Source: a virus. Taken from it: DNA of 28,322 bases. The DNA lies in the IMG/VR virus record IMGVR_UViG_3300006919_000308, positions 1-28,322 of that record; one strand, 5' to 3'. Made by a program: the position numbers and the translations under genes. Below, one piece after another: positions 2 through 27,580 of this stretch; position 1 is the first letter of the stretch; every line of letters begins with the position of its first letter. The notes beneath the pieces were generated by a model. That model saw only the letters and a list, made by a program, of their open reading frames with translations. It did not search any database and was not told where the DNA came from.

Positions 2-589
2 TCAGCTGGAATTATTAGGCTAGATGACAATAGAAGTATTTCATGGGCAACAACGGATGCTAACATAGGTAGAGTGGAGATCTATGGTAACGAAGTAAAT
101 GACTATATATTGTTTAAGACTGACAACCAGGAGAAGATGCGTCTCATTAGTACAGGATTAGGCATAGGAACAACAGCACCTGCTGGCCCTCTACACGTCA
201 AGTACTCCTCATCCACACTTGCTGGCATCACCATTGAGAACGATGGGGTTGGGTTCAACGCTGGATCAATGACCCTGCGTAGCGGAACATCGGGTGGGGT
301 AAATATGTCCGTCACTAGTGGTGGTGGGCTGTACTTCTACAACCTAGACACAATGTCCAATACACTGAGTCAGCCCGCAACGGGGAACTTGATTGTAGGG
401 GGCGCTGTAGACGCTGGATACCGCCTTGATGTCAAGGGTGGCGATGCCCGCTTTGAGCAGAACGTAGAGGCTGCAACCTATTCCGTGGCTGGTAATGCTG
501 GCTACTCTGGAATTGTGAACTTCCCATCCAATCCCCCTGGTTCTCAGAACATGGAGTTTTTGCATGGAATATTGATAAATGTTTTTTAA
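2..589 (+). CDS. Tail fibre / receptor-binding protein, C-terminal part (5' truncated by window edge)
   Basis: The reading frame is open from base 2, so the gene begins before the window; the GTG at 74 is only an internal codon. The visible 195 residues are rich in Gly, Ser, Thr and Asn. They include the segment LGIGTTAPAGPLHV, a variant of the GIGTTSPxxxLHV signature that recurs in phage tail fibres and other trimeric beta-rich fibre proteins. A second partial copy (GYRLDVKGGDARFEQNV) lies further on. The C-terminus is a short hydrophobic tail (HGILINVF). No intramolecular chaperone (peptidase S74-like) domain is visible at the end. The stop codon TAA (587-589) forms the first three bases of the next promoter. 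Fibre identity is inferred from composition and the repeat signature; receptor and exact tail position are unknown. Confidence 0.7.
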   Translation, partial: SAGIIRLDDNRSISWATTDANIGRVEIYGNEVNDYILFKTDNQEKMRLISTGLGIGTTAPAGPLHVKYSSSTLAGITIENDGVGFNAGSMTLRSGTSGGVNMSVTSGGGLYFYNLDTMSNTLSQPATGNLIVGGAVDAGYRLDVKGGDARFEQNVEAATYSVAGNAGYSGIVNFPSNPPGSQNMEFLHGILINVF

Positions 590-594
590 CTTTG
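587..594 (+). promoter_or_regulatory. Bacteroidota-type -7 promoter element TAACTTTG
   Basis: It matches TAnnTTTG and ends 4 nt before the ATG at 599. A TTTG at 559-562 could act as the -33 element, though its 24-nt spacing is slightly long. The element shares its TAA with the stop codon of the fibre gene. The predicted transcription start falls on or next to the A of the ATG. Confidence 0.65.
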
Positions 595-598
595 TAGC

Positions 599-874
599 AT
601 GACTGAGATTCAACCCGTAACCGTCCCTACCAAAGGCACGGCTAAGTATTTCCAAATCACCGCACTGAACTTTGTGGTGAGCCCCACTAGTGGCATTCAA
701 ACATACTGGCAAATTTTTGCAGAGCAAGTAGACGAGGAAGGCGTGGCATCACCTGGTGCTATGCTGATGGACGGCAACTTGCCTATGGACCAAGCTACCT
801 ACGATCAGTGGGGAACAGACGATGAGTATGTCGTTGATTGGGGACTCGAACAACTAGGATTTACTAAAGCATAA
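599..874 (+). CDS. Small acidic protein downstream of tail fibre, unknown function
   Basis: This 91-residue protein has no signal peptide or membrane segment. It is acidic toward the C-terminus, with several Trp and Tyr residues (YDQWGTDDEYVVDWGLEQL). The N-terminal half reads like a short beta-rich domain. It sits directly behind a fibre gene, as do other small acidic proteins at 3892 and 7999, so a tail-associated, fibre-assembly or fibre-capping role is possible but unproven. The ATG is fixed by the promoter motif ending 4 nt upstream. The stop overlaps the next start by 1 nt (TAATG), which suggests translational coupling. Confidence 0.75.
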   Translation: MTEIQPVTVPTKGTAKYFQITALNFVVSPTSGIQTYWQIFAEQVDEEGVASPGAMLMDGNLPMDQATYDQWGTDDEYVVDWGLEQLGFTKA

Positions 875-1119
875 TGGAACTTACAGATAAACAAAAAGAA
901 AAACTGACTACAATGCGGACCCTAGAGGAGAACTGCATTGTAATGTTAGGTCGTATCTCTGCTAACCGAATTGACCTTCGTCTTCAAGAAGATGAGATTA
1001 AGGAGGCTATGTTTGAGAACGCCAAGAAGCGTCAAGAACTGCTTAAGGAGATTGAGGAAGATTTAGGACCTGGATCTATCGATATGCAGACTATGACGTT
1101 TACGCCAAAAGAAGACTAA
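874..1119 (+). CDS. Small coiled-coil phage protein (paralogue of the 8973 gene)
   Basis: The 81-residue protein is almost wholly charged and helical (Lys, Glu, Arg, Leu heptad-like spacing) up to about residue 63. It then ends in DLGPGSIDMQTMTFTPKED, which matches the C-terminal pattern 'Gly-Ser-Ile-Asp/Asn-x-x-Thr-x-x-Phe/Tyr' of the protein at 8973-9212. Short proteins of this form (helical hairpin, then GxxxLDLETGEF-like tail) are common in marine and Bacteroidota phages; I recognise the pattern but not a function. It starts at the TAATG overlap with the preceding gene. Downstream lie two hairpins (1121-1137 and 1143-1172), so it probably closes a two-gene transcription unit. Confidence 0.75.
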   Translation: MELTDKQKEKLTTMRTLEENCIVMLGRISANRIDLRLQEDEIKEAMFENAKKRQELLKEIEEDLGPGSIDMQTMTFTPKED

Positions 1120-1120
1120 A

Positions 1121-1137
1121 CTGCTGATTCTCAGTAG
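1121..1137 (+). other. Small hairpin after stop codon
   Basis: CTGCTGA (1121-1127) and TCAGTAG (1131-1137) can form a 7-bp stem with one G-U pair and a 3-nt loop, directly after the TAA at 1117-1119. It has no U tract. With the larger hairpin just downstream it may help end the 599-1119 transcript or protect its 3' end. Confidence 0.4.
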
Positions 1138-1142
1138 TTCGA

Positions 1143-1172
1143 ATGCCCGGAAACTATAAAATTTCTGGGCAT
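1143..1172 (+). terminator. 11-bp hairpin overlapping the next promoter; terminator candidate
   Basis: ATGCCCGGAAA (1143-1153) pairs with TTTCTGGGCAT (1162-1172): 11 bp including one G-U pair, with an 8-nt loop. The 3' arm abuts TATCTTTG at 1173. There is no clean U tract after the stem (TATCTTTG follows), so it is not a textbook rho-independent terminator. Because it fills the -14 to -40 region of the promoter, it could instead be an operator or influence promoter opening. An ATG inside its 5' arm makes a longer reading of the next gene possible, but that start would lie upstream of the transcription start. Confidence 0.45.
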
Positions 1173-1180
1173 TATCTTTG
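1173..1180 (+). promoter_or_regulatory. Bacteroidota-type -7 promoter element TATCTTTG
   Basis: The motif ends 4 nt before an in-frame GTG at 1185, the same spacing seen before the ATG codons at 599, 2783 and 4144. No TTTG-like -33 element is evident; the region is occupied by the 1143-1172 hairpin. Confidence 0.65.
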
Positions 1181-1184
1181 TAGA

Positions 1185-1445
1185 GTGAAGCTACCAGTAT
1201 CATTCTCCGAATTTTCTAAAGACCCATCCAAGGCGGTGACATACCTGATGATCTTCGCTGTTATTTTTTTGTATATTCGTATGGAAAATCAGGACAAAGC
1301 AGTCAACACTGGATGTGAGGATCGCTTGAGTAGATGCGAAGCTAAGCTGGATCAGTTTTCTTCCATGCTCAAGACGCAAGACTCCATCTCGTCTGCGCTT
1401 CGTGCTGAGTTAACAACATACCAAAAAATGGGCATTATCAAATAA
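1185..1445 (+). CDS. Membrane-anchored coiled-coil protein (GTG start)
   Basis: An 86-residue protein when started at GTG 1185. An upstream in-frame ATG at 1143 lies inside a hairpin and before the promoter, so the GTG is preferred. After a short N-terminal segment (FSEFSKDPSKA) comes one membrane helix (VTYLMIFAVIFLYI), then a soluble region with two Cys residues (GCEDRLSRCEAKLDQF) and a helical, probably coiled-coil, tail. This is the topology of an inner-membrane protein with a periplasmic coiled coil, as in Rz-type i-spanins, or of a holin accessory protein. The neighbours (a putative secreted coiled-coil protein and a holin candidate) make a lysis role plausible. Its 3' end overlaps the next start by 1 nt. 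Confidence 0.6.
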   Translation: MKLPVSFSEFSKDPSKAVTYLMIFAVIFLYIRMENQDKAVNTGCEDRLSRCEAKLDQFSSMLKTQDSISSALRAELTTYQKMGIIK

Positions 1446-1798
1446 TGAAACACGTCATTTTGCTTGCATCGCTAACAGCCGCTGCTGTTCCTGTCGCTCC
1501 AGAGCTTGGCTCTGCTGATCCATACCAAAAGTACTCCATGCAACTCGACCATGCTCAAGCCAGCATTGAGATGACTAAGGCTGCCATCGAGGAGGTCAAA
1601 GAGATGAACGAGGCTGCCATTGAGGAGGTCGTAACTAAGATGGAAGAGGTAAAGCAGGAGGCTGAGGAGATGAAGAAGAAGACTGAGCTCTTGATGGTAG
1701 TGCTCGAGACTAATAACATTGAAGTTCCAAAGGATCGTGAGTCGTGGTATGAAGACTCTGTTCGCACGGCCAATATGATAGAAATAAACAAGAAATGA
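1445..1798 (+). CDS. Secreted or tail-associated coiled-coil protein, unknown
   Basis: 117 residues. The first ~24 residues (MKHVILLASLTAAAVPVAP) look like a signal peptide with a basic N-region, a hydrophobic core and small residues near a possible cleavage site; no lipobox Cys is present. Residues about 35-90 form a long Glu/Lys/Met-rich helix with the repeated unit AAIEEV (in EMTKAAIEEVKEMNEAAIEE), strongly suggesting a coiled coil. The C-terminus is polar. It lies between a membrane coiled-coil protein and a holin candidate with tight overlaps (TAATG before, ATGA after), so the three are probably co-translated. A lysis or envelope role is an inference from position. Confidence 0.6.
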   Translation: MKHVILLASLTAAAVPVAPELGSADPYQKYSMQLDHAQASIEMTKAAIEEVKEMNEAAIEEVVTKMEEVKQEAEEMKKKTELLMVVLETNNIEVPKDRESWYEDSVRTANMIEINKK

Positions 1799-2019
1799 AA
1801 AACTTTTTCAAACAAATGATCTCTTCAAAGGACGGAGATGTCTCACACAAACGAGTCTTGGGGTCAATCGGTTTCTTGGCTTTGGTTGCTACTATGGTCG
1901 CTAATTCTTTTTCCCCTCTTGATGTTGCGCCTAGCCCTGAGCTGGTAAGTGCCGTTGAGTACTTGGTAATGTCTACTGTTTTCGGCTCTGTGCTGGAAAA
2001 ATTCACAAACAAAGGGTAA
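1795..2019 (+). CDS. Putative holin (two membrane helices)
   Basis: The 74-residue protein has an N-terminal polar stretch with several Lys residues (SSKDGDVSHKRVLG), one hydrophobic helix (about 22-40), a Pro-containing turn (PLDVAPSPE), a second moderately hydrophobic helix (about 48-66) and a charged C-terminus (LEKFTNKG). The 'SS.DG..S.KR..G..G' start and two-helix layout match small holin-like proteins I associate with Bacteroidota phages (class II topology). Holins form pores in the inner membrane that time lysis. Its ATG overlaps the previous stop by 4 nt, and its stop overlaps the next ATG by 1 nt. No endolysin is adjacent. Confidence 0.6.
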   Translation: MKNFFKQMISSKDGDVSHKRVLGSIGFLALVATMVANSFSPLDVAPSPELVSAVEYLVMSTVFGSVLEKFTNKG

Positions 2020-2309
2020 TGGCCGATAAGAGCAAGATGAAATGCAATGTTCCACGGACGAGCGATCGCCCTGGGAAGAAGATGATGGTCAAGGCTTGCT
2101 CTGGAGGCACTGAGAAGTTAATTCACTTCGGGGCCAAAGGGTACGGACACAACTATAGTGCGGCTGCTCGTAAGAGTTTCAAGGCTCGTCACAAGTGTTC
2201 TACCGCCACCGATAAGTTATCTGCTCGTTACTGGGCCTGCAAGAAGTTGTGGGCTGGTCCTGGAGGGTCAACCAAAAGTAGTCCTAAAACACGTAAAGGT
2301 AAATACTGA
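2019..2309 (+). CDS. Small basic Cys-containing conserved phage protein
   Basis: 96 residues, strongly basic, with four Cys residues in short contexts (MKCNVP, KACSGG, HKCSTA, WACKK). The core (LIHFGAKGYGHNYS, then AARKSFKARHKC and a Trp-Ala-Cys motif) belongs to a widespread small protein type in aquatic phages and some large eukaryotic viruses; I recognise the pattern but do not recall a demonstrated function. Positive charge and paired Cys suggest nucleic-acid binding or metal coordination. It follows the holin candidate with a TAATG overlap and heads a run of four small basic proteins. Confidence 0.75.
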   Translation: MADKSKMKCNVPRTSDRPGKKMMVKACSGGTEKLIHFGAKGYGHNYSAAARKSFKARHKCSTATDKLSARYWACKKLWAGPGGSTKSSPKTRKGKY

Positions 2310-2310
2310 T

Positions 2311-2478
2311 ATGAAAAAGATGATTAAGGAGTATGGCGGAAAGGAAAAGTACGCTTCCAAGAAGGCTAAGGCCATGCATGAGAAAAAAGAGAGCAAGGCC
2401 ACCGAGAAGAAGGAAAAGAAACAAGTAGTGTCTAATACTAGTGCAGCAAAAGTAACCAAGAAATATACTAAGCGATGA
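2311..2478 (+). CDS. Very short Lys-rich protein
   Basis: 55 residues, roughly a third Lys, with Glu and Ala making up much of the rest (for example KKAKAMHEKKESKATEKK). The ATG at 2311 lies one base after the previous stop and gives a compact product. An upstream in-frame start exists inside the 2019 gene but would need a long overlap in another frame, so it is rejected. The sequence is low complexity and probably disordered or a single helix. A DNA-binding or packaged basic role is possible. The stop overlaps the next ATG (ATGA). Confidence 0.6.
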   Translation: MKKMIKEYGGKEKYASKKAKAMHEKKESKATEKKEKKQVVSNTSAAKVTKKYTKR

Positions 2479-2633
2479 AAAGCAAAGGACTTGGAGATTC
2501 TGTAGAGAAGGTCATGAAGGCCACGGGGATCAAGAAGATGGCAGAGAAATATGCCGAGAAAACTGGGAAGGACTGCGGTTGTAATAAGCGCAAGGAGTCA
2601 TTAAATAAAATGTTCCCTTATGGCAAAGGCTAA
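2475..2633 (+). CDS. Small conserved protein with CxC motif
   Basis: 52 residues, start fixed by an ATGA overlap. The N-terminal half is helical (GLGDSVEKVMKATGIKKM). The C-terminal half carries a Cys-Gly-Cys motif in the context GKDCGCNKRKESLNKMFPY. This 'ATGIKK ... DCGC.KRKE.LN..FPY' layout recurs, in my recollection, in small proteins of Bacteroidota phages, which makes it a real gene despite its length. The CxC pair could bind a metal or form a disulfide; the function is unknown. It overlaps the following gene by 14 nt in another frame. Confidence 0.7.
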   Translation: MKSKGLGDSVEKVMKATGIKKMAEKYAEKTGKDCGCNKRKESLNKMFPYGKG

Positions 2634-2769
2634 AAGCGGGTCCTTAAACTCGTCAACTTACAAGGTACGGTCCAAGGTTTGCAGACCTGGTGTCCATGCC
2701 AAGACCAAGACTTCTAGAACTAAGGGCAGTAAGCTCTATGTGAAGAAATATAAGGGTCAAGGAAAATAA
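2620..2769 (+). CDS. Very short basic protein, conserved type
   Basis: 49 residues, rich in Lys, Ser and Thr, with one Cys. The middle segment CRPGVHAKTKTSRTKGSK followed by LYVKKYKGQGK matches small '(S/C)RPG.H.K......SK.YVKKY.GQG' proteins that I associate with Bacteroidota phages. The ATG lies within the end of the 2475 gene; the frame is otherwise open to TAA 2767-2769, just before the next promoter. The four genes 2019-2769 form a basic-protein cluster; a role in DNA condensation or virion packaging is only a guess. Confidence 0.65.
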   Translation: MAKAKSGSLNSSTYKVRSKVCRPGVHAKTKTSRTKGSKLYVKKYKGQGK

Positions 2770-2779
2770 CTATCTTTGT
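2763..2779 (+). repeat. 17-bp promoter-region repeat, copy 1
   Basis: AAAATAACTATCTTTGT is identical to 26672-26688. In both places it spans the end of one gene and the promoter of the next, so the phage reuses an extended promoter sequence. Confidence 0.85.
2771..2778 (+). promoter_or_regulatory. Bacteroidota-type -7 promoter element TATCTTTG
   Basis: The motif lies 1 nt after the stop codon at 2767-2769 and ends 4 nt before ATG 2783. No convincing -33 TTTG is present at 17-23 nt spacing. It is embedded in the 17-bp repeat shared with 26672-26688. Confidence 0.7.
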
Positions 2780-2782
2780 GCT

Positions 2783-3892
2783 ATGCCAATTCAACAATTG
2801 CAGCATGGCCATGGTGTGTCTATTACACCGAATGACAACGCCTATATTTGGCAGCAACTATTCTATACCTATAAGGTTTACACTACACTGTATGTAGGCG
2901 GTGCGGGAGACCTGCACGTCTTGACGGCTGGTGGCGATGACATCACGTTTAGCTCAGTCCCTGCTGGAACATTCCTTCCCGTCCATGTGGCAAAGGTCTT
3001 TGCTAGTGGCACGACTGCTACGGGGATCATAGCCCTTGACATCACAACGCAGCCTACTGATTTTACTGGCTTGCTTGACACTTATAGTGGTGCAGCAGCT
3101 GCGTACTCTTTGCGTCAGTTGTCATCATCTTACTCTGGTAGTGCTATCCGTGTCCGCAGATCCTCCGACAACGCAGAGCAGGATATCGGCTTCGCATCTA
3201 ATGAGTTAGATACGACCGCCTTGACTGCCTTCTGCGGTGCTGGTAATGGCTTTGTCACAACTTGGTATGACCAAAGTGGAAATAGCAATGATGCAACTCA
3301 AACAACAGCAGCGAGTCAGCCGCAGATAGTTAGTAGTGGGAGTGTAATAACGGAAAATGGGAAGCCGAGTGTGCAGTTTGATGGGAGTAATGATTTTGTT
3401 CAGCACGCTGCCATTTCAGGTTCTGCTTTTAGCGGTTTTGCCGTATCTTCGGGTATTTACACAGCGTTTGGTGCGGTTATAAGTTCAAGGAAAAATCTTG
3501 GAGCTTTTACTCAAAATGGTTATGTTGTTCTGTATGGTGACGATTCTCCCACAAATACTTTTTTTGGTCAAACCAGAGATGGCACAACTTTTCAAATATC
3601 TCAATTTACAAATGGTCCAACAACGCAGCAATTAATCTCACTTATAAATGATAGTTTTGGAATCGGCTCAAGTACGCAAACATTATATCAAAACAATGTA
3701 CAAAAGGCAACTAACTCAACATATAATCCGATTTCGTATAGTGTTACAAATCAATATTGTATAGGCGCTGATAATTCAACCGGGAACTTTCTTAATGGCA
3801 AGATACAAGAAGTAATATTGTACACCTCTAATCAAATGAGTAACACAAATGGCATAAATAACAACATAAACGACTTTTATTCTATATACTAA
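2783..3892 (+). CDS. Tail fibre: spike-base domain plus lectin-like (GH54/LamG-type) domain
   Basis: 369 residues. Residues 1-90 resemble the GTA 'spike base protein RCAP_Rcc01079' type (LYVGGAGDLHVLTAGGDDI, then PAGTFLPVHVAKVFASGTTA). The same domain makes up the whole protein at 4144. From about residue 93 it resembles the catalytic-fold domain of alpha-L-arabinofuranosidase B (GH54, a concanavalin-type jelly roll): AAYSLRQLSS, AIRVRRSSDNAEQDIGF, VTTWYDQSGNSNDATQ near 161 and GKPSVQFDGSNDFV near 196. I cannot confirm catalytic residues, so glycan binding is as likely as hydrolysis. The C-terminus is Asn-rich. Base composition becomes more AT-rich after about 3330, hinting that the distal part was exchanged. 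Probably a receptor-binding tail protein. Confidence 0.75.
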   Translation: MPIQQLQHGHGVSITPNDNAYIWQQLFYTYKVYTTLYVGGAGDLHVLTAGGDDITFSSVPAGTFLPVHVAKVFASGTTATGIIALDITTQPTDFTGLLDTYSGAAAAYSLRQLSSSYSGSAIRVRRSSDNAEQDIGFASNELDTTALTAFCGAGNGFVTTWYDQSGNSNDATQTTAASQPQIVSSGSVITENGKPSVQFDGSNDFVQHAAISGSAFSGFAVSSGIYTAFGAVISSRKNLGAFTQNGYVVLYGDDSPTNTFFGQTRDGTTFQISQFTNGPTTQQLISLINDSFGIGSSTQTLYQNNVQKATNSTYNPISYSVTNQYCIGADNSTGNFLNGKIQEVILYTSNQMSNTNGINNNINDFYSIY

Positions 3893-4134
3893 TGACAAAA
3901 GGCTACCAATACCAAACCGAACAAGAAGCACAAACCGCACAATCGGCTTGTAACGCTTATTACGGCATTCCCGTGAACGATGAGGATGTGACCCGTAATT
4001 GGGTAGGCTATCAGTTCGCTGAATTGAATACCCCAACCTTTTGGTACATCATCTATGATGAGTCGTTGCTACCAGTCTTAGGCGAGCCCACGGAGTTCGA
4101 GGTCGTTTACCCCGATATAAATCAAAACCCTTAA
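3892..4134 (+). CDS. Small acidic fibre-companion protein, unknown
   Basis: 80 residues, acidic, rich in Tyr, Gln and Thr, without membrane segment or signal. The C-terminal half (NTPTFWYIIYDESLLPVLGE, then FEVVYPD) loosely resembles that of the 7999 protein (VDILWYTEPVADFTPYEVWP), and both directly follow a fibre gene. A fibre-assembly chaperone or tip-capping role would fit but is an inference. The ATG overlaps the fibre stop (TAATG). Its own TAA (4132-4134) provides the first three bases of the next promoter. Confidence 0.7.
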   Translation: MTKGYQYQTEQEAQTAQSACNAYYGIPVNDEDVTRNWVGYQFAELNTPTFWYIIYDESLLPVLGEPTEFEVVYPDINQNP

Positions 4135-4139
4135 CTTTG
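4132..4139 (+). promoter_or_regulatory. Bacteroidota-type -7 promoter element TAACTTTG
   Basis: The motif ends 4 nt before ATG 4144 and uses the previous gene's stop codon as its first three bases. A TTTA at 4106-4109 (22-nt spacing) could serve as the -33 element. It may drive a long unit reaching the terminase and portal genes. Confidence 0.65.
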
Positions 4140-4143
4140 CAAT

Positions 4144-4398
4144 ATGTATCAGAAACTTCAAGTCGGAAGGGCAGCGTCTGTCACCCCTAGCGACACTGTA
4201 GATATCCCATCGGTAACTGGCGGAACTAACAACGGCTGCGTCTTGTATGTAGGCGGATACGGAGACATTAAGGTTCGCACCATTGGTGGAGATGACATTA
4301 TATTTGCTGGCGTCCTTGGTGGAACCTTTATGCCCATACAGGTGATTAAGGTTTACGCTACTGGAACCAGCGCAACTGACATCGTAGCCCTTTGGTAA
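4144..4398 (+). CDS. Spike-base-like protein (RCAP_Rcc01079 type)
   Basis: 84 residues that are essentially one domain, matching residues ~1-90 of the 2783 fibre: YVGGYGDIKVRTIGGDDIIF, GGTFMPIQVIKVYATGTSAT, ending DIVALW. This is the pattern of the small spike base protein family known from gene transfer agents (LYVGxxGdlxVxxxGGxxVtFxxVpaGtxlPixVxrVxaTGTtAtxIVAL). It may form a beta-rich base to which spikes or fibres attach. The start is fixed by the promoter ending 4 nt upstream. It is followed after 1 nt by a large fibre gene. Confidence 0.75.
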   Translation: MYQKLQVGRAASVTPSDTVDIPSVTGGTNNGCVLYVGGYGDIKVRTIGGDDIIFAGVLGGTFMPIQVIKVYATGTSATDIVALW

Positions 4399-4399
4399 T

Positions 4400-7997: not shown

Positions 7998-7998
7998 A

Positions 7999-9212: not shown

Positions 9213-9225
9213 CTATAAGAATTCT

Positions 9226-14876: not shown

Positions 14877-14894
14877 TTTTTTATAGTATATTTG
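14862..14894 (+). promoter_or_regulatory. Promoter for scaffold/capsid unit: TTTG-N21-TATATTTG
   Basis: TTTG at 14862-14865 and TATATTTG at 14887-14894 are separated by 21 nt, a full match to the Bacteroidota -33/-7 arrangement and the best -33 in the window. The -33 element lies in the end of the portal gene. The ATG at 14916 is 21 nt downstream, giving a leader of roughly 17 nt, unlike the other promoters here. Confidence 0.75.
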
Positions 14895-14915
14895 CGATAA
14901 ACAATCTAATCTAAT

Positions 14916-16004: not shown

Positions 16005-16020
16005 CTAAAAAACAAAAATT

Positions 16021-17436: not shown

Positions 17437-17451
17437 TCCTTAAACTTTAAT

Positions 17452-17479
17452 GGGGGGTGGTAATCCCGCCCCCCTTTTT
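17452..17479 (+). terminator. Rho-independent terminator after the capsid gene
   Basis: GGGGGG-T-GG (17452-17460) pairs with CC-G-CCCCCC (17466-17474) around a 5-nt loop, a 9-bp GC-rich stem with one G-U pair. TTTTT (17475-17479) follows directly. It ends the scaffold/capsid transcript and would let only part of the transcription reach the 17504 gene, for which no promoter motif is visible. Confidence 0.85.
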
Positions 17480-17503
17480 ACTTACAACTTAAATAAAATA
17501 CAA

Positions 17504-18235: not shown

Positions 18236-18243
18236 AAAAGCAT

Positions 18244-18251
18244 TAACTTTG
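18244..18251 (+). promoter_or_regulatory. Bacteroidota-type -7 promoter element TAACTTTG
   Basis: The motif ends 7 nt before ATG 18259. No clear -33 TTTG at the usual spacing; a TTG at 18230-18232 is too close. With the terminator at 18561 it frames a single-gene transcription unit. Confidence 0.6.
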
Positions 18252-18258
18252 CGATGTT

Positions 18259-18540
18259 ATGGAAAAATTTTTAAGTATCCCCGTCACTAACGAGCAGAGC
18301 CAATTGGTTTCTGCTAATGGAATCCTCTTGATCGAGCAAGCTGGTCAAACTTCTGTTACCATCACTTATTTGAGTGGTAAGGTAACTACCTTGACTCATG
18401 CTTCTGCTGCTGTAGGAAACGAAGATCAGCGTGATGCTATCCAAGATGCCGTTGTAGCTGCTTTGCAGACTCCTTGGTATAAAGTAGCCTTCGCTGTAAC
18501 TAGTTTGCCTTACGCAGTTAGCGGTATTGCCGTTGCTTAA
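18259..18540 (+). CDS. Small virion-type protein in its own transcription unit
   Basis: 93 residues, low in charge and rich in Ala, Val, Thr and Ser, beta-strand-like in the first half (LLIEQAGQTSVTITYLSGKV), with a helix (EDQRDAIQDAVVAAL) and a hydrophobic end (YAVSGIAVA). Codon use resembles the capsid gene (TTG, GCT, GGT, AAC), suggesting high expression. With its own promoter (18244) and strong terminator (18561-18592) it appears to be transcribed alone, as expected for an abundant virion component such as a decoration or minor capsid protein. I do not recognise a family with known function. An ATG at 18254 is out of frame and gives only a few codons. Confidence 0.75.
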   Translation: MEKFLSIPVTNEQSQLVSANGILLIEQAGQTSVTITYLSGKVTTLTHASAAVGNEDQRDAIQDAVVAALQTPWYKVAFAVTSLPYAVSGIAVA

Positions 18541-18560
18541 TTTTAGGTTATTCTAAGAGA

Positions 18561-18592
18561 AAGGCCATCCCAATAGGGGTGGCTTTTTTTTT
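18561..18592 (+). terminator. Rho-independent terminator
   Basis: AAGGCCATCCC (18561-18571) pairs with GGGGTGGCTTT (18576-18586) around the loop AATA, 11 bp with two G-U pairs. The T run extends from 18584 to 18592. The next promoter (18595-18602) begins 2 nt beyond the T run, so termination and re-initiation are closely coupled. Confidence 0.88.
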
Positions 18593-18594
18593 GT

Positions 18595-18602
18595 TATCTT
18601 TG
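18595..18602 (+). promoter_or_regulatory. Bacteroidota-type -7 promoter element TATCTTTG
   Basis: The motif ends 6 nt before ATG 18609, immediately after a terminator T run. No -33 TTTG at standard spacing, as that region is the terminator stem. Probably drives the connector/tail unit 18609-26673. Confidence 0.65.
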
Positions 18603-18608
18603 CATAAG

Positions 18609-19304
18609 ATGATTAACGAGGTGAGAAATACCGTGATGTTTATTCTGAATAAGGATAACAATGGTTACCTTACTCCTTCTGAGTTCAATGCCTTTGCACG
18701 ACTATCTCAGTTGGAGGTGTTTGAGGATTTATTCCAGAAGGTAAATGCATGGAATACTCGCAGAAACAATAGGACTTCAAATAGCGGTGTCGCTGATGTA
18801 GCCAAGAATCTTGCAGAAGATTTGGATACGTTTGTAAAGACAGCAACATTGACTCTTGATACTGGAAGTACATTTAACTTGCCAACAGATGTATACGGAT
18901 TGGTTGATGTTATTTATTCAAATAAATCTGTAGAGAAGGTTTCGAATCACAGAATAACATTGCTGAATAATTCAAACTTGACTGCACCTAGCACCTATTT
19001 CCCTGCATATGTAGATAGAGAGACAAAGGTTACTTTATATCCAACAACGATTGTTACGGGAGTGTCTGCCATATACATACATCTTCCTTCTGATCCTAAT
19101 TGGACCTACTACACAGATCCTAATGGTAACCCAATCTTTGATATCAACAATCCAAGTTACCAAGACTTTGAACTTCCCAAGATTTATCAAAGGGAGTTAG
19201 TGTTGCGTATCCTAGCGAAGGCTGGTGTCACTTTGAGAGAGGCTGATATTATTAATGTAGTCAATACAGAAGAGGCTAAAAACCAACAAAAAGAAGGTAA
19301 GTAA
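18609..19304 (+). CDS. Head-tail connector / adaptor candidate
   Basis: 231 residues from ATG 18609. An in-frame GTG at 18579 lies within the terminator hairpin, upstream of the promoter, and is rejected. The N-terminus MINEVRNTVMFILNKDNNGY plus LTPSEFNAFARLSQLEVFED is a pattern (NK...GY(L/I)TP.EFN..A..AQ.E.F) seen in connector-region proteins of Bacteroidota phages. A beta-rich centre (LDTGSTFNLPTDVYGLVDVI) and a C-terminal helix follow. Position between capsid and gp4-like connector genes supports a head-completion or tail-ring role. The DxNxxG piece looks like an EF-hand loop but is not convincing. TAATG overlap with the next gene. Confidence 0.65.
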   Translation: MINEVRNTVMFILNKDNNGYLTPSEFNAFARLSQLEVFEDLFQKVNAWNTRRNNRTSNSGVADVAKNLAEDLDTFVKTATLTLDTGSTFNLPTDVYGLVDVIYSNKSVEKVSNHRITLLNNSNLTAPSTYFPAYVDRETKVTLYPTTIVTGVSAIYIHLPSDPNWTYYTDPNGNPIFDINNPSYQDFELPKIYQRELVLRILAKAGVTLREADIINVVNTEEAKNQQKEGK

Positions 19305-20203
19305 TGGCACAAACCCCACAGCAATATTATAGTTCAGCGGCCAACTACGGAAGTGGTCAATATGTTACATTGAATGATGTAGTCAACAACTTCATGCTCA
19401 TGTATGTGGGTTATGACAAGTTGATTGACAATGTAGACCGATACAATGTATTATTCCACGCAAAACGTGCCGTACAAGAACTAAACTACGATGCCTTCAA
19501 AGAGATTAAGGTTTTAGAAACTTTAGTCAATGACGACTTGAAAGTCATATTACCTCAGCATTATGTAAACTATGTCCGTATATCATACGAACAAGGTGGA
19601 GTGCTGTTCAAGATGAGCGAGAACAAGACAGTCAACTGGGCTAAGAAGTACGAGCAAGACGAGAATGCAAACTACGCATACTTGTTTGATATCGATGGCA
19701 ATTTGATTGAGGAGCAGTCTGAACTAGATCGCATCCGTATTGAAGGCACCTATGGGCAGTACCCATACCCAGGACCTTGGTTTGGTCGTTGGGGATGGTT
19801 CTATAATGACTACTGGTACTTCGGTTACACATTTGGTGGATGGTACGGAGCTGATGCTTCTAACTTAAACAGCAACCCAACATTTGTGATCAATAAGGAA
19901 GATGGTGTCATCAACTTCTCTTCTGGACTAAAAGGTTCTACAATCGTGCTTGAGTACATTACTGATGGACTCGAAAGCGAGGACCCTTCTCAGATTATGA
20001 TTCATAAGTTTGCCGAGGAGTTTGTTTACGCTTACATCAAGTGGTGTATGCTTAACAACCGAATTGGTGTACAAGAGTATGTCGTTAGGCGTGCCAAGCA
20101 AGACAAATCTTCTTTGTTGAGGAATGCAAAGATTAGACTTAGCAACATCAATCCTAGAAGGCTTTTGATGGCTTTGCGTGGAAACGATAATTGGATTAAA
20201 TAA
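19304..20203 (+). CDS. P22 gp4-like head-tail connector / tail tubular protein (crAss-like type)
   Basis: 299 residues. The N-terminal helical part (VTLNDVVNNFMLMYVGYDKL, then FHAKRAVQELNYDAFKEIKV) and the beta part LPQHYVNYVRISYEQGGVLF match the P22 gp4-like connector of crAss-like phages, which forms a ring under the portal. The C-terminal helix contains FAEEFVYAYIKWCMLNNRIG and ends in SNINPRRLLMALRGNDNWIK. Residues about 149-184 form an extraordinary aromatic insertion: 17 of 36 residues are Tyr, Trp or Phe, with many Gly. It overlaps both neighbours by 1 nt (TAATG). Confidence 0.78.
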   Translation: MAQTPQQYYSSAANYGSGQYVTLNDVVNNFMLMYVGYDKLIDNVDRYNVLFHAKRAVQELNYDAFKEIKVLETLVNDDLKVILPQHYVNYVRISYEQGGVLFKMSENKTVNWAKKYEQDENANYAYLFDIDGNLIEEQSELDRIRIEGTYGQYPYPGPWFGRWGWFYNDYWYFGYTFGGWYGADASNLNSNPTFVINKEDGVINFSSGLKGSTIVLEYITDGLESEDPSQIMIHKFAEEFVYAYIKWCMLNNRIGVQEYVVRRAKQDKSSLLRNAKIRLSNINPRRLLMALRGNDNWIK

Positions 20204-23200: not shown

Positions 23201-25836
23201 TTGTCTTCCAAGAAGACAAGGTTTCTAAAGTTCTGTTCGGCAAGAATCTGCTTTCTGACTCTGTTGGCGGTGGTGTTATTTCAAGTGTTCCAGAAGTTCT
23301 TGGGACGCAAATAGCATACTCTGCTGAGTTTGGCATATCTAGTAACCCCGAGAGTTTTGCTAAGTGGGGCAATGATGTATTTTTTACCGATCAGAAGCGA
23401 GGGGCTGTTTTGAACCTTACACAATCAGGCATTAAGGAAATATCTACTTATGGTATGCGTTCTTGGTTCCGTGATTTGTTTGACGAATCTCCAAGCACAC
23501 AGAAGCTTGGTGCCTTTGATCCTTACGAGTTCATGTATGTGCTTTCTTCAAATGAGATTGACATTGCTCAATGCTCGTTGACAGTTAGCAATAGCGAGAT
23601 TCTAGTGAGTGGAGATGCCTTCACAAATGGATTCTTGTTCTCAATCACATCTAACACCGATTGGGTTATCACATTGGTTGATACTGGAGATGGCACTAGT
23701 TGGCTTACATTGAATCAAACTAGTGGCAATGGTAATGCTGGTATCGCTGGTGAGATATCTTCAAATGTAGGGGCTGGAAGTAGCCGCTCTTTGACTATCC
23801 GTGTGACAGCTTGTGGTCAGAATACTGACATCACATTCACTCAGTCAAACGAAAAGCGCAAGGAGATTATCGTAGTAAGCACTGGAGATAAAACTAATGA
23901 TGGAGAGAAGTCTACTTTGCCATCATACAACTCTGGTCTTGGAAACATTGGGAACACTCCAGTGCCAATCTCTCAAGATGGCGACTATATCTTTACGGAT
24001 GTTCGTGGTGGTATCGTTGGCACAGATGGAATTCCAAACTCTGGAGATAGTGTAGACATCATTGGCTCTACTTCTTTCGGAGATGCTACCTTGCCAGAGA
24101 AGCCATTCAATCCAAACTTAGGTAACAAGATGTACTATCTTGATACCAATACAGTATACGACCCAACGCAAGGATCTGATATCATTGCTGCTGGAACAGA
24201 AGTACCAAGTTATACTTTAGTGGGAAGTGAGTATAAAGGCAACTTTACTTACTCAGCAACTAATGACTACTTGTACATCGTTATCGATTATACAAACGTA
24301 TTGAGCAATGGAGACGCAGTGACTAGCATTCCGGTGCCAACTAATGGGTTGCCAGAAGTGATTAATGTAGATAACTCGGCATCGATTGGAAACTATGTTG
24401 TGACTTACTCGTCTACCTCTACTGATATTCGATTTGTAGTAGAGAATGCCAATGGAGCAATTATCGCTGATAGCGGATATGTGAATGCCCCTAGCGCTCA
24501 GACATTGAGCATCAAGAAGACAGCTACTGGCCAAGATGTTGTTAAGGTTTACAATAATGATGTAACCGGAACCGACACCTTTGACTTGACAATTGGAGCA
24601 ATTGCTTTGACCTCTGCCTCAATTGGTAGCACTGGACACGATACCGCTTCTGAGTCTTGCGCTGGTTCTGGCACTCAGACAATCTACCACAACGGATCAA
24701 CGGCTGACCCATTGCCTGGTGACATCGTATACACTACCGCTGCTGGAACTACTGTGTTTGACGGAGGGGGTCAGTACTACACATCTAGTGGAAATACAAT
24801 TGTAATCACATCGGCTGGTGTAGTTCGATACATTGAATCTTGCACTTGCTCTGAAACAGAGGTGCCCACAATTACCCAAGGTGACATCTTTGTTGAGCAG
24901 TCAGTACCCATGTCGCTGAAAGTACAAGCTACAAATAATCCAACGTCTTTTGCTGCTGCTGGAAATTGCAGAGAGTTCTCGATGTTTGGAGGGGCAGATG
25001 GTGCTGTATTCAGTGGTGTCGATTGTACTACTGGAATTGCAAAAGAAATCTTCGTTTCTTCAAATGACACTATAACTCGGTGCTTCTGGATTGATTCTGT
25101 ATATATCGTTGGAGGTAGCGCTGACGCATCGTTTGAAGATGTTGGAGGGTGTACAAGTACATCACTTCCAGAAGGAGTAGAACTTGATACAGATACTGGT
25201 GTTATCAGTGGTACTCCTAGCAATCAAGGTAAATTTACATTCACCCTCAATGCTACGAACTGCTTTGGAACTAGTGCTGATGCGTCATTTGATATCACGG
25301 TTGGCCCTGGTGCTCCACCAACCACACCATTCTTGGTAGAGATGGATAGCCCACAGACTACATCTGCATTGGCTTGTGCCATTTCTAGCCCAACTTATGA
25401 CACAATGTACCACGATGGTATCTTGTCTTACCCTGTCATCCGTGACGTGGTATACGAGGACGAACTTGGTCTAATTTTGTTCGTAGGCGGAGACGACTGG
25501 TACTTGATGGAGAATGGAGTTGCCATTCAAGTTGGTAACGATGGTGTTGTATCTGATACTTTCCAGTGCGACATTTCACCTAGCGGTCCCGTTACTCCAA
25601 CATGGACATCTGGTGGATCGGTTGGTTATGACGCAAGTGACTCGCTAGTATCTTGTGCAGCAGGTAGCACAGTTGCCATATACTACACTGGCACATACGG
25701 GGTTAATCCAGGTAAGTTGTCATTGTCTGCAAGTGGTAGCCCCTATGCTCCTGCTGGATGGTATAAGCACCCAACTAATGCAACCACCCACTATTGGGAT
25801 GGAAGCCAATGGACTACGGCAGCTGACTGCCCATAA
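20203..25836 (+). CDS. Giant tail protein: crAss-like stabilisation/muzzle protein with BACON and Ig-like domains
   Basis: 1877 residues, the largest gene here. The N-terminus (KAIMNKSLDDRLVPDGYYID, then ALNIKVSSTDGSD and VQNYLGNTEKV) matches the tail stabilisation (P22 gp10-like) protein of crAss-like phages. Residues up to about 1115 are mostly beta-rich. About 1125-1216 is a BACON domain (FSITSNTDWVITLV, SWLTLNQTSGNGN, ITFTQSN), a carbohydrate-associated Ig-like fold typical of Bacteroidota and their phages. About 1555-1702 is a putative Ig domain (LPEGVELDTDTGVISGTP) apparently interrupted by a ~65-residue Cys-containing insert (about 1590-1653). Cys-bounded modules recur at 1486-1547, 1725-1789 and, more diverged, 1818-1876. 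No signal peptide. Probably the tail hub/needle with glycan-adhering C-terminal arms. Confidence 0.82.
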   Translation: METKRNFIKAIMNKSLDDRLVPDGYYIDALNIKVSSTDGSDAGTVQNYLGNTEKVDVNTLLSAEGFTPQVDIYPIGSFTDTKNNNIYWFLTSTTYDMILKYHEADNGTPTGTLIMVETRSGGIMNFSREYLITGVNLVDNLLFFTDGLNAPRRIDVGKQYRDTDISDDSVNVIVKPPLASPDIELIYDPAETSDNLEDKFIRFAYRYKYVNNEISAISPFSKTAFEAQAFEFDFGTGRNESMRNKANSINITVDLGSDQVEKVEIIMKDSRNKNAMVVTSIDRASNIAFGQTYVHKFKNNKIFSVLPDSQVNRLFDNVPLRAKAQDLIGRRIVYGNYRQFFDIKKVSGEDIVMDFALLSRTTATTSGTPYETFKSGRNYEVGVAYLDDFGRMTTVLESEKGDSTINIPITSAVNKNDLYVKISNKAPEFASKYRLFLKQNRGTYYNILPTGIVFDGLFVYILIPKYDIDKVKEGDLIYIKSTPSGVKQDSWKYKILEAEQKEKNFLGEQNEQIQDEGFYIKIKVENAGYFSEDSFYTLKDEGYGVNSQVSGVRKSNSIIEGTRDFLDKKLNPHVDKPIFYGDGTNQSLEVITFNSQLASAGLTGNFSYKFDTDRRFVIEITDVNKFSWRDYRLSQNYGTDITMNSDALPTLFNGQGGNILIANLGGLNFIFGYIHWDTSKNYTVGDKFILNYRGWRYGMFGTPISFDFDSNLYWSGAYTCVPDRGTKASNDGDLSITPGTIIELQVTESSTQPLQTFVSQGTYENIEEWFFEERIYEKYVQYTSDGKPDGATAVFFRRGYAAQSVQKKNTIRVINDVGDPNGYIMMCMKGYDNNPGSIGDQRSIRVKLKVRRPDNITILETEGEPLVEDVYYELPKTYPILPGNLHGKILSTDTDQSVLNPAIITIEDFNAITFGNGMESSIIEDVWNGPELLPSPRASASIDRYEQIDSVNSLTYSGVYNESSSTNDLNEFNLSLANFKALEKEYGSIQKLYARDTDLVVFQEDKVSKVLFGKNLLSDSVGGGVISSVPEVLGTQIAYSAEFGISSNPESFAKWGNDVFFTDQKRGAVLNLTQSGIKEISTYGMRSWFRDLFDESPSTQKLGAFDPYEFMYVLSSNEIDIAQCSLTVSNSEILVSGDAFTNGFLFSITSNTDWVITLVDTGDGTSWLTLNQTSGNGNAGIAGEISSNVGAGSSRSLTIRVTACGQNTDITFTQSNEKRKEIIVVSTGDKTNDGEKSTLPSYNSGLGNIGNTPVPISQDGDYIFTDVRGGIVGTDGIPNSGDSVDIIGSTSFGDATLPEKPFNPNLGNKMYYLDTNTVYDPTQGSDIIAAGTEVPSYTLVGSEYKGNFTYSATNDYLYIVIDYTNVLSNGDAVTSIPVPTNGLPEVINVDNSASIGNYVVTYSSTSTDIRFVVENANGAIIADSGYVNAPSAQTLSIKKTATGQDVVKVYNNDVTGTDTFDLTIGAIALTSASIGSTGHDTASESCAGSGTQTIYHNGSTADPLPGDIVYTTAAGTTVFDGGGQYYTSSGNTIVITSAGVVRYIESCTCSETEVPTITQGDIFVEQSVPMSLKVQATNNPTSFAAAGNCREFSMFGGADGAVFSGVDCTTGIAKEIFVSSNDTITRCFWIDSVYIVGGSADASFEDVGGCTSTSLPEGVELDTDTGVISGTPSNQGKFTFTLNATNCFGTSADASFDITVGPGAPPTTPFLVEMDSPQTTSALACAISSPTYDTMYHDGILSYPVIRDVVYEDELGLILFVGGDDWYLMENGVAIQVGNDGVVSDTFQCDISPSGPVTPTWTSGGSVGYDASDSLVSCAAGSTVAIYYTGTYGVNPGKLSLSASGSPYAPAGWYKHPTNATTHYWDGSQWTTAADCP

Positions 25837-25848
25837 TAAGAATAACGA

Positions 25849-26673
25849 ATGGCTAACTATACATTAACATATTCAGAGGAGTTGCTAGGATGGACATCGT
25901 TCCACTCCTACACTCCCGACTGGATGGCTGGGCTGAACAATGACTTCTATACTTTCAAGAATGGTAAGGTATGGAAGCATAATGTGAACACTACTAGAAA
26001 TAACTACTATGGCGTTCAGTATGACACCATAATAGAGACCGTGTTCAATGTGGAGCCTGACCAGCCAAAGATGTTTAAGACAATTAAGCTGAAGGGCAAG
26101 AGTGCACAACCTTGGTCTGCTGTTGTTACATCGGATTTGTCCGATGGACTTATTGCTGTTAGTGGATACGAGAAGAAAGAAGGCAACTGGTATGGTTATG
26201 TTCGTAGAGAAGATGGCGACCTAGACCCAACATTCTTGTCAGTCCAGGGTCTTGGCATTGTCGACACGGCAACTACCGTTCTTGACACTGTCGTCATAAC
26301 GATAATTGGCAATGTGACACAAGGCGTGTCCGTAAAGACCCAATCACCACCTCAAAATAACGGAGACTTATTATTTGCTGGTGTTATATCTGGCTCTAGC
26401 ATCACATCACTTGGGCCTAAGTTAGGACAAGTGAGTACGATATCTTATGATTCTGTAACGAACACAACAACCATAGAAATGGTCAACCACCCATACACTG
26501 GAGCAGCTCCAACGCCTCCATCTATTGGTGAGTATTTGATTTCTGCAAAAAGTTCAGTGGCCGAATCTTATGGATTGCGTGGATCGTACATGAATGTTCG
26601 TCTAACAAACTCTGAATCAGAACACGTAGAGTTGCTATCTATAGGCTCTGAGATATTTAAGAGTTACCAATAA
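25849..26673 (+). CDS. Tail-associated protein following the giant tail protein (crAss-like context)
   Basis: 274 residues. The start YSEELLGWTSFHSYTPDWMA, then LNNDFYTFKNGKVWKHN and RNNYYGVQYDTIIETVFN, matches the 'YSE...GW.SF.S..PD....LNN.F.....G..(W/Y).HN' region that in related phages can be the C-terminal part of, or the gene next to, the stabilisation protein. Beta-rich; no signal or membrane segment. It begins 12 nt after the previous stop, and from its pattern is probably a partner in the short tail. The second half (about 130-215) is less familiar and may be an inserted beta domain. The stop overlaps the 17-bp promoter repeat. Confidence 0.7.
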   Translation: MANYTLTYSEELLGWTSFHSYTPDWMAGLNNDFYTFKNGKVWKHNVNTTRNNYYGVQYDTIIETVFNVEPDQPKMFKTIKLKGKSAQPWSAVVTSDLSDGLIAVSGYEKKEGNWYGYVRREDGDLDPTFLSVQGLGIVDTATTVLDTVVITIIGNVTQGVSVKTQSPPQNNGDLLFAGVISGSSITSLGPKLGQVSTISYDSVTNTTTIEMVNHPYTGAAPTPPSIGEYLISAKSSVAESYGLRGSYMNVRLTNSESEHVELLSIGSEIFKSYQ

Positions 26674-26688
26674 AATAACTATCTTTGT
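26672..26688 (+). repeat. 17-bp promoter-region repeat, copy 2
   Basis: Identical to 2763-2779 (AAAATAACTATCTTTGT); contains the promoter element for the 26693 gene. Confidence 0.85.
26680..26687 (+). promoter_or_regulatory. Bacteroidota-type -7 promoter element TATCTTTG
   Basis: The motif ends 5 nt before ATG 26693. A TTTA at 26656-26659 gives 20-nt spacing and could be a degenerate -33 element. Likely starts the internal-virion-protein unit. Confidence 0.7.
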
Positions 26689-26692
26689 AACA

Positions 26693-27580
26693 ATGGACCC
26701 AATTACATTATCGCTACTTATATCGCTTGGGACCCAACTCGCTGGTATGGGTGCAAGCACGTATTTTAGCAAAGGGAGACAGAAAGACGCTGAACAAGCA
26801 GCCCAAAGAATTGCGGCACAACAGCGCATGGTTAAGGAATCTGATGAGGTTTCTGGATTGCAAGTTCCAACTCTTGGTTCAGAATTGGCACGCCAAGAAC
26901 TAGGTCAACAATATGCTAGTTCACTTAAGGCATTGCAACAATCTGGCGCTGCTGGCGTACTCGGTGGAGTGCCTGCATTGGCTGGTATTGGTGCTGACCA
27001 AGCATTGAATATTGCTGGAGATTTGAACCGATTGCAAGCAGAGCGTGATCGCTTCGTTGCTGGAACATTGCAAGAGCGTGCTGCTCGTGAGGCTCGTTCT
27101 GAGAGAGACTTGCTTGGCCAACAATTGGCTGGCGCTCAGATGTCCGCTGCTCAAGAAAAGGCACAACAACAGCAGAATGTTGCTGGAATGATTGGTGCCA
27201 TTGGCACAACTACTGGCCAATACATTGGGGCTCAAGCTTTATACAAGAAACAACCAGAGGCTACTAGCAATGTAGCAAAGCCAGCGCCCAAGATGGAATA
27301 CGAGAAATACGCTCCATCATTGTCTACTACTGAGTCTGTTTCTAAGTTGGGGACGATAGAGGATCGAATGATGCCAATGCCTCAGATTGGTGGACCTGGT
27401 CCAGAACAATTCTTGGGTCTCCCAAGCGCTGGTGTGCCATCTCTTGGTATTCCATCGCTATATCAGCCTAGCAATATGTACGCTAACGCATTTGCTACCC
27501 CATCTATTGGTGGAGCAAATATCTCTCCATTCTTAGGGTTGAGTGGCCTTCCAGGTATTCCTCCAATAACTTTTAGATAA
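26693..27580 (+). CDS. Internal virion / DNA-ejection protein candidate
   Basis: 295 residues. It begins with a hydrophobic, possibly membrane-active helix (ITLSLLISLGTQLAGMGAST), continues with Ala/Gln/Arg-rich helices (KDAEQAAQRIAAQQRMVKES, LQERAAREARSERDLLGQQL), Gly/Ala-rich hydrophobic stretches (GAAGVLGGVPALAGIGADQA; MIGAIGTTTGQYIGAQALY) and a Pro/Gly/Ser-rich tail. This resembles T7 gp14-type and crAss-like cargo proteins that are stored in the capsid and ejected to help DNA cross the envelope. Its start is set by the promoter ending 5 nt upstream. One base separates its stop from the next ATG. Confidence 0.65.
   Translation: MDPITLSLLISLGTQLAGMGASTYFSKGRQKDAEQAAQRIAAQQRMVKESDEVSGLQVPTLGSELARQELGQQYASSLKALQQSGAAGVLGGVPALAGIGADQALNIAGDLNRLQAERDRFVAGTLQERAAREARSERDLLGQQLAGAQMSAAQEKAQQQQNVAGMIGAIGTTTGQYIGAQALYKKQPEATSNVAKPAPKMEYEKYAPSLSTTESVSKLGTIEDRMMPMPQIGGPGPEQFLGLPSAGVPSLGIPSLYQPSNMYANAFATPSIGGANISPFLGLSGLPGIPPITFR

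Follow-up and report, generated by a model that had tools for sequence, protein, structure and literature searches.

The arrangement of sites and genes in the window

The window analysed here, a stretch of 28,322 nt from the genome of about 60 kb of an uncultivated podophage that we read as a virus of Bacteroidota, carries the octamer TAWCTTTG in front of seven genes, each time as TAACTTTG or TATCTTTG (Table 1; the gap is the number of nucleotides between the octamer and the start codon). The site at 18595 precedes the connector-region virion genes starting at 18609, 19304 and 20203, and an eighth and more distant site, TATATTTG, lies in front of an operon of scaffold-like and major capsid genes and provides a contrast case within the window. 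Within the window, none of the genes for terminase, portal and a virion protein of 1877 aa is directly preceded by a site of this kind. At two of the sites, those at 587 and 4132, the TAA of TAACTTTG doubles as the stop codon that ends the ORF before it (74-589 and 3892-4134, respectively).

Table 1. Predicted promoter elements, RNA structures and downstream genes in the window
Feature	Coordinates	Strand	Detail
-7 promoter element TAACTTTG	587..594	+	gap 4 to ATG 599
Gene, predicted leaderless message	599..874	+	TATCTTTG-TAAC-ATG at the same gene in L012
Hairpin adjoining -7 element	1142..1173	+	MFE -9.3, z -2.4
-7 element TATCTTTG	1173..1180	+	gap 4 to GTG 1185
Gene, GTG start, predicted leaderless message	1185..1445	+	start supported by relatives
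-7 element TATCTTTG	2771..2778	+	gap 4 to ATG 2783
Tail-fibre-like gene, predicted leaderless	2783..3892	+	
-7 element TAACTTTG	4132..4139	+	gap 4 to ATG 4144
Tail-fibre-like gene, predicted leaderless	4144..4398	+	
Leadered -7 element TATATTTG, eighth sigma-A-type site	14887..14894	+	gap 21 to ATG 14916
-7 element TAACTTTG	18244..18251	+	gap 7 to ATG 18259
93-aa gene	18259..18540	+	predicted leader 2-3 nt
Intrinsic terminator, T-run adjoining next promoter	18554..18593	+	MFE -23.6, z -5.6
-7 element TATCTTTG	18595..18602	+	gap 6 to ATG 18609
Virion structural (connector-region) gene	18609..19304	+	predicted leader 1-2 nt
-7 element TATCTTTG	26680..26687	+	gap 5 to ATG 26693
Virion structural gene	26693..27580	+	predicted leader 0-1 nt

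The original prediction had placed seven TA(A/T)CTTTG sites 4-7 nt before start codons, and all seven were found there, with gaps of 4, 4, 4, 4, 7, 6 and 5 nt. These are the only copies of TAWCTTTG on the plus strand of the whole window, and the minus strand carries none. After dinucleotide shuffling (n=100) the octamer occurred on average 3.1 times on both strands together, and at least 7 times in 2 of the 100 shuffles, so that the count is only mildly unusual and position is what matters. For position, the 31 gene starts were slid around the window as a circle through 28,322 registers, and the sites lying 4-7 nt before a start were counted in each. No site was so placed in 27,497 registers, one site in 797 and two in 23; three, four, five, six and seven sites were each reached in a single register, the one with seven being the true one. 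An accidental fall of an octamer with six fixed bases near the starts, which the number of copies alone would allow, is refuted by these counts and again by the recurrence of the pattern in relatives and in hold-out loci, and its probability is negligible.

Promoter identity and spacing in the relatives

The promoters of Flavobacterium johnsoniae carry the -7 element TAHHTTTG at -12 to -5, with the start site 4-5 nt further on (PMC6847099), and the -7 element of F. psychrophilum likewise lies at -12 to -5 (PMC9723704). All seven sites, and the eighth site as well, fit this consensus. From the Flavobacterium positions, the RNAs of the window are expected to carry either no leader or one of 1-3 nt. 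In the phage family, near and far sites alike have an AT-rich block (about -22 to -15) that lies 3-10 nt ahead of the element, and A stands at the predicted +1 of the leadered class with a frequency of 0.64, at a place where the start codon could not be its cause. The positions matching the -33 element TTTG hold no information in the phage-family sites; in F. johnsoniae, too, the AT-rich blocks at -18 and -28 are more evident than the -33 element (PMC6847099), so that the latter is not a strict requirement. The sites share with the sigma-A promoters of Bacteroidota the -7 consensus, the AT-rich block around -18, the weak or absent -33 element and the frequent A at the predicted +1. A sigma-70 scan is not meaningful for Bacteroidota.

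The distance between motif and ATG was then compared over 611 TAWCTTTG sites in the relatives. Three sites have a gap of 3 nt and 32 a gap of 4 nt; a total of 77 fall at 4-7 nt, 9 at 8-13 nt and 113 at 14-21 nt, and the distribution consists of a sharp edge at 4, a desert at 8-13 and many sites from 14 upward. The edge, like the A at the predicted +1, lends indirect support to a transcription start 4-5 nt past the element. Neither peak appeared with the reverse complement or the reversed motif as controls, but because the control motifs, too, lie at every gap before a few starts by chance, a minority of the relatives' sites may be chance. Related sequences are not independent, a problem that two further analyses reduce: after collapsing by protein family, 41 families fall at 4-7 nt versus 13 and 14 in the adjacent bins (controls, 11 and 6), and in the hold-out loci the bins of four nucleotides from 0 upward hold 4, 12, 1, 12 and 25 sites, largely repeating the bimodality. 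The records of leaderless lineages have 40 sites at 4-7 nt and 5 at 12-20 nt, those of leadered lineages 16 and 46. That gaps of 8-13 nt (about 4-9 nt of leader) are avoided speaks for initiation by two distinct routes and not along a continuum.

The same promoter is found with both spacings. Among orthologous connector promoters the gap is 4-7 nt in 23 and at least 14 nt in 41, and it is 8-13 nt in none; the hold-out loci divide into 8 leaderless versus 22 leadered. Locus L127 counts as leaderless, because an ATG in frame lies 7 nt behind its element. In front of the 93-aa gene (18259 in the window) the gap is 4-9 nt in the leaderless lineages and 29-35 nt in the others, and wherever both sites could be scored the two promoters change mode together without exception (gap of the 93-aa gene 4-9 or 29-32 nt). 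That the leaderless state arose only once was rejected (p-AU 0.006; best constrained tree 49.8 log units worse), and at least 3 mode changes are required on the capsid tree. Judged by its spacing, the connector promoter thus occurs in both modes, depending on the lineage, and its mode has changed more than once; no direction, gain or loss, is claimed, because rooting with cultivated phages as outgroup gave very long branches. For gene 2783, the promoter in 12 relatives has gap 4 in 5 and gap 7 in 1, and 6 are without the site.

The scaffold/capsid promoter stays apart from this variation, being leadered (gap 15-36 nt) in 73 of 73 relatives with a recognisable site and in 27 of 27 hold-out loci. 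In two relatives (G002 and G029), leaderless sites were also identified on the strand opposite to the structural genes. The original prediction had gone on to propose a late programme relying on leaderless messages. Leaderless messages from the seven sites are still the best reading, well supported by comparison with the relatives, but the late programme is not supported; the observations indicate that the mode is specific for gene and lineage and follows no late-gene rule.

The short and fixed distance to the start codon might also be that of a translation signal or an operator. In the leadered lineages, however, the element is kept together with its AT-rich block at 14-29 nt from the orthologous start, still behind the T-run, and it is absent before operon-internal genes of the relatives (major capsid protein, 0/90; terminase, 0/30; the homologue of gene 20203, 0/54). 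Together with the match to the known -7 consensus, this makes a role other than that of a promoter very improbable.

Start codons, terminators and read-through

The start codons were picked from ORFs, and real promoters might be followed by true starts further downstream, the nearby codons being annotation errors and the messages ordinarily leadered. Longer ORFs were listed for 1185 (from 1143) and 18609 (from 18579), but the relatives align from 1185 and 18609. At 18259 and 18609 the alignment runs from residue 1 over dozens of loci. The GTG at 1185 is confirmed by a 93%-identical protein in L133, where this codon is likewise GTG and has its own TATCTTTG 4 nt ahead of it, and by L128, L132 and L008, where the codon is ATG. 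Two of these loci, L008 and L128, also carry TATCTTTG at gap 4 before gene 2783, and L086 has TATATTTG at gap 5 before gene 26693. As a random relation to the starts would give neither the edge at gap 4 nor the desert at 8-13, misplaced starts are a quite unlikely explanation, though slightly less so than a translation signal.

At some gene boundaries the site directly follows an RNA structure (Table 1). The hairpin in front of 1173 has a counterpart of the same shape and different stem sequence in L133, and the T-run precedes the connector promoter also in relatives, including hold-out loci. No strong terminator was found, as far as scanned, in front of 587, 4132, 18244 and 26680, and read-through RNAs could therefore carry these genes with a leader. 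Upstream hairpins in general were rejected as a mark of leaderless sites, an MFE below -10 being found in 20% of leaderless versus 22% of leadered sites (random stretches, 8%).

It is accordingly conceivable that some leaderless RNA is made and remains minor or regulatory, the protein coming mainly from leadered read-through RNAs, as might be expected also from the two sites that overlap the preceding stop codon and from the small share of leaderless RNAs in characterised Bacteroidota. On the other side, gene 18609 lies directly behind the strong terminator, and the apparent selection for gaps of 4-7 nt and against those of 8-13 nt implies that leaderless RNAs are translated. We consider read-through as the main source of protein unlikely, albeit the most probable of the alternatives.

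Leaderless and leadered placements in the phage family

With high probability, then, the seven sites are sigma-A-type -7 elements giving leaderless or near-leaderless messages, and leaderless and leadered placements coexist in the phage family; this reading borrows its promoter rule from Flavobacterium. The motif, its positions, the bimodal gap, the lineage switching and the capsid exception are read from the sequences themselves, and the RNA 5′ ends and the route of ribosomal initiation are predicted from them. The primary (sigma-A type) RNA polymerase of the host would read the seven elements and begin transcription 4-5 nt past each, so that the RNA 5′ end would coincide with the start codon or precede it by 1-3 nt, the expected leader at gaps 6-7 being 1-3 nt and not zero. 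Initiation by Bacteroidota ribosomes does without Shine-Dalgarno sequences, and in this phylum leaderless messages are regarded as rare; the ribosome would here start on the 5′-terminal or near-terminal start codon. Where an intrinsic terminator runs right up to the -7 element, as it does between some of the genes, termination, new start and translation would take place within about 50 nt. The family would thus employ two promoter placements, one leaderless (leader 0-3 nt) and one leadered (about 10 nt or more, A/T-rich), the connector promoter changing mode between lineages jointly with that of the 93-aa gene and the scaffold/capsid promoter always leadered. The capsid operon may keep its leader because leadered messages are more strongly translated.

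Leaderless genes as such are already known. A survey of TA-led genes, with a Pribnow-like TANNNT signal, detected them in only one of the 37 Bacteroidetes/Chlorobi genomes covered, at 2.4% (Zheng et al. 2011, PMC3160421). In these as in the -10-adjacent ORFs of Deinococcus-Thermus (PMC12340547), leaderless transcription is read from a -10/-7 element that precedes the start codon by about 12 nt; this spacing was found in the window. Unlike the TA-led genes, the window has the Bacteroidota element, lies in a phage and has orthologous promoters that switch by lineage. The cI gene of phage lambda (named in PMC9031893) is likewise a phage gene translated from an RNA beginning at the start codon, but it is a single gene, whereas several operons are predicted to be leaderless in the lineage of the window phage beside a leadered capsid operon. 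Characterised Bacteroidota hosts have mostly leadered messages (median 24-32 nt in two), with a leaderless or very short share of 3.7-13% (F. johnsoniae, PMC6847099; F. psychrophilum, PMC9723704; Bacteroides thetaiotaomicron, PMC7366714), as compared with predicted leaders of 0-3 nt at the seven TAWCTTTG promoters of the window.

Cultivated podophages with homologous terminase (32-44% identity in the records listed) and connector protein (30-42%) are Flavobacterium phage elemo (Elemovirus), Cellulophaga phage phi38:1 (Pervagoviridae), Tenacibaculum phage Gundel_1 (Pachyviridae) and Maribacter phage Panino. In all four the connector gene is preceded by this -7 element in leadered position (gap 19 in elemo, 21 in phi38:1, 15 in Gundel_1 and 16 in Panino, against 6 in the window), and homologous structural genes stand in an order resembling that of the window in elemo, phi38:1 and Panino, the terminase of Gundel_1 being elsewhere. 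The nearest cultivated phages, elemo from Flavobacterium BAL314 and phi38:1 from Cellulophaga baltica, are thus leadered and have few sites at gap 4-7. The window phage is a relative of these podophages, but with the low terminase identity it is assigned to no genus or family. No description of promoters in these phages was found in the literature, the words "promoter" and "leaderless" being absent from the isolate papers checked. One scan of genome contigs identified no host; an Ilumatobacteraceae (actinobacterial) MAG was rejected, since its only link was a 48%-identical capsid gene on a contig of 4,875 bp, probably a mis-binned phage contig, and Bacteroidota plasmids, taken as a stand-in for host genomes, gave too few sites to judge. 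A phage-encoded ribosomal protein S21 as translation switch was also rejected, none of 21 relatives with complete or long sequences having a match.

More tentatively, and at somewhat less than even probability, these phages may set two modes of translation initiation purely by the promoter-to-start distance, with leaders of about 4-9 nt avoided, and whole lineages may switch several operons jointly, the capsid operon exempt, in adaptation to hosts with leaderless-favouring ribosomes. If true, it would be a pointer to hosts in a Bacteroidota lineage, so far unrecognised, in which leaderless transcripts abound. For gene callers, starts 4-7 nt after TAWCTTTG are likely to be real in these phage genomes, and orthologous promoters in both versions provide natural matched pairs for the choice of start codon by Bacteroidota ribosomes. 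Should the leaderless lineages have a host group in common, the gap would serve as a host marker that can be read from sequence alone.

The TAWCTTTG sites and their position relative to gene starts

The original prediction placed seven TAWCTTTG sites 4-7 nt before start codons (587, 1173, 2771, 4132, 18244, 18595 and 26680), and this observation was confirmed: all coordinates were exact, and the window carries seven copies on the plus strand and none on the minus strand. Against shuffled sequence the count itself is between ordinary and mildly high (shuffles average 3.1 over the two strands, and 2 of 100 reach seven). When the 31 gene starts were slid round the window, the true register was the only one of 28,322 at which all seven sites fell 4-7 nt before a start. 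By de novo counting within 20 nt upstream of starts, we identified among the top 8-mers TATCTTTG, ahead of four starts that take up all four window copies, and TAACTTTG, ahead of three starts that take up all three. The GTG start at 1185 is backed by the relative L133, in which both GTG and TATCTTTG at gap 4 (nt between element and start codon) are retained, and the same codon is ATG in three other relatives.

At 587-589 and 4132-4134, the TAA of TAACTTTG also ends the ORF before it, so that stop codon and promoter overlap. Within 1142-1184, a hairpin adjoins the -7 element ahead of the GTG start, and since L133 carries a hairpin at the same place with a different stem sequence, the U-rich element may serve also as a terminator U-tract. 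For orthologues of gene 25849, the upstream site lies at gap 4-7 in 12 of 13 relatives having one; the window is without a site there.

Relatives of the phage and promoter character of the sites

The window genes were classified by PHROGs as tail-fibre-like, terminase, portal, capsid-type and other virion structural genes; the names scaffold-like (14916), major capsid (16021) and connector-region (18609) come from position and PHROG class. The terminase is 71% identical to that of MW202828, an uncultivated podovirus genome, and 32-44% identical to those of phages of Flavobacterium, Cellulophaga and Tenacibaculum among those listed, and the order terminase, portal, scaffold-like, capsid, connector is common to the window, MW202828, Elemovirus, phi38:1 and Panino. 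From this terminase identity and common gene order, the host is very probably a member of the Bacteroidota. A 4,875-bp contig of an actinobacterial Ilumatobacteraceae MAG (L197), probably a mis-binned phage contig, carries a capsid gene 48% identical to that of the window. Large tRNA arrays are present in Maribacter and Cellulophaga relatives (L237, 33778-36541; L239, 6071-16258) and a tmRNA is annotated in Panino; no tRNA was found in the window.

The -7 element of F. johnsoniae is TAHHTTTG at -12 to -5, mostly 4 or 5 nt from the start site, with blocks rich in A and T at -18 and -28 and next to no -33 element (PMC6847099); that of F. psychrophilum takes the same position (PMC9723704). The phage sites, near and far from start codons alike, share an AT-rich block at the corresponding place and lack a -33 element. 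At sites far from a start codon, where that codon is not the cause, the predicted +1 is A in 64%, which lends weak support to the promoter reading because A is common also at several neighbouring leader positions. In the window and relatives, the connector-gene element comes after an intrinsic terminator's T-run (window hairpin, MFE -23.6, z -5.6). Ahead of operon-internal genes the element was found in 0 of 90 relatives for capsid, 0 of 30 for terminase and 0 of 54 for gene 20203.

Gap distribution and predicted leaders

With a start site 4-5 nt past the element, RNAs from sites at gap 4-5 would begin at the start codon or one base upstream, and those from sites at gap 6-7 would have a leader of 1-3 nt; these lengths rest on the Flavobacterium offset. 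For 611 distinct TAWCTTTG sites of the window and relatives, ATG candidates number 7 at gap 0-3 (background), 32 at gap 4, 77 over the whole of 4-7 and 9 at 8-13, with a second rise starting at gap 14 (113 at 14-21); control motifs showed neither the gap-4 jump nor the second rise. An edge at gap 4 is expected of a physical start site, since a nearer ATG would go untranscribed. The loci are metagenomic contigs, partly overlapping, from which identical stretches were removed, with strands and control motifs handled alike. As homologous promoters are non-independent, downstream proteins were clustered, giving 41 families with a site at gap 4-7 versus 13 at 0-3 and 14 at 8-11 (controls at 4-7, 11 and 6). 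Hold-out loci, fetched afterwards in two scans, the second seeded with an Elemovirus capsid protein and thereby also widening the sample, gave 4, 12, 1, 12, 25 and 20 in bins of four from gap 0; their connector gaps were 5-7 in 8 loci, 14-25 in 22 and never between.

The leaderless reading of the seven sites, as originally proposed, is well supported by comparison. Read-through from the preceding gene could cover some sites as well. The shares published for Bacteroidota are low: in B. thetaiotaomicron about 3.7% of the 5' UTRs are below 10 nt, the figure for F. psychrophilum is 5.5% (PMC9723704), and leaders of 10 nt or less make up at most 13% in F. johnsoniae (PMC6847099).

The capsid promoter and switching between lineages

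The further proposal, that leaderless messages underlie a late programme, is too strong a claim, being contradicted by the leadered scaffold-like/capsid operon promoter. Of the relatives, 73 have a site for this promoter, and in all of them it is leadered (gaps 15-36; seven more lack the site); they include every relative of a leaderless lineage in which it was scored. The same holds for 27 of 27 hold-out loci, and the leader is A/T-rich and unfolded. This suggests that the most heavily needed protein may retain a leader. In relatives, leaderless sites lie also opposite the structural-gene strand (4 forward and 3 reverse in record G002; 2 and 3 in G029). The ORF called at 17450 starts within the hairpin past the capsid gene, and its true start is probably ATG 17504, behind an A-rich leader.

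Features of the capsid region in the window
Feature	Position	Sequence	Remark
Scaffold-like/capsid operon promoter	14887-14894	TATATTTG	gap 21, leadered
Intrinsic-terminator-like hairpin	17452-17474	GGGGGGTGGTAATCCCGCCCCCC then TTTTT	just past capsid gene

The promoter element and leaderless phage messages are each already known; in the openly licensed literature searched, we found no description of a two-mode arrangement that has an avoided range, lineage switching and a capsid exemption.

The two modes are best compared at the connector promoter, where T-run and element are alike: 23 relatives have a gap of 4-7 and 41 a gap of 14-29. In the four cultivated relatives, all on Flavobacteriaceae, this promoter is leadered. 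In loci scored for both, the promoter of the 93-aa gene 18259 tracks it without exception (gap 4-9 with leaderless, 29-32 with leadered). On the capsid-protein tree at least three changes between the modes are needed, and a single leaderless clade was rejected (p-AU 0.006). Among records that are complete or long, those of leaderless lineages carry 40 TAWCTTTG sites at gap 4-7 and 5 at 12-20, those of leadered lineages 16 and 46, respectively; leaderless placement is therefore a minority across the phage family and dominant in some of its lineages.
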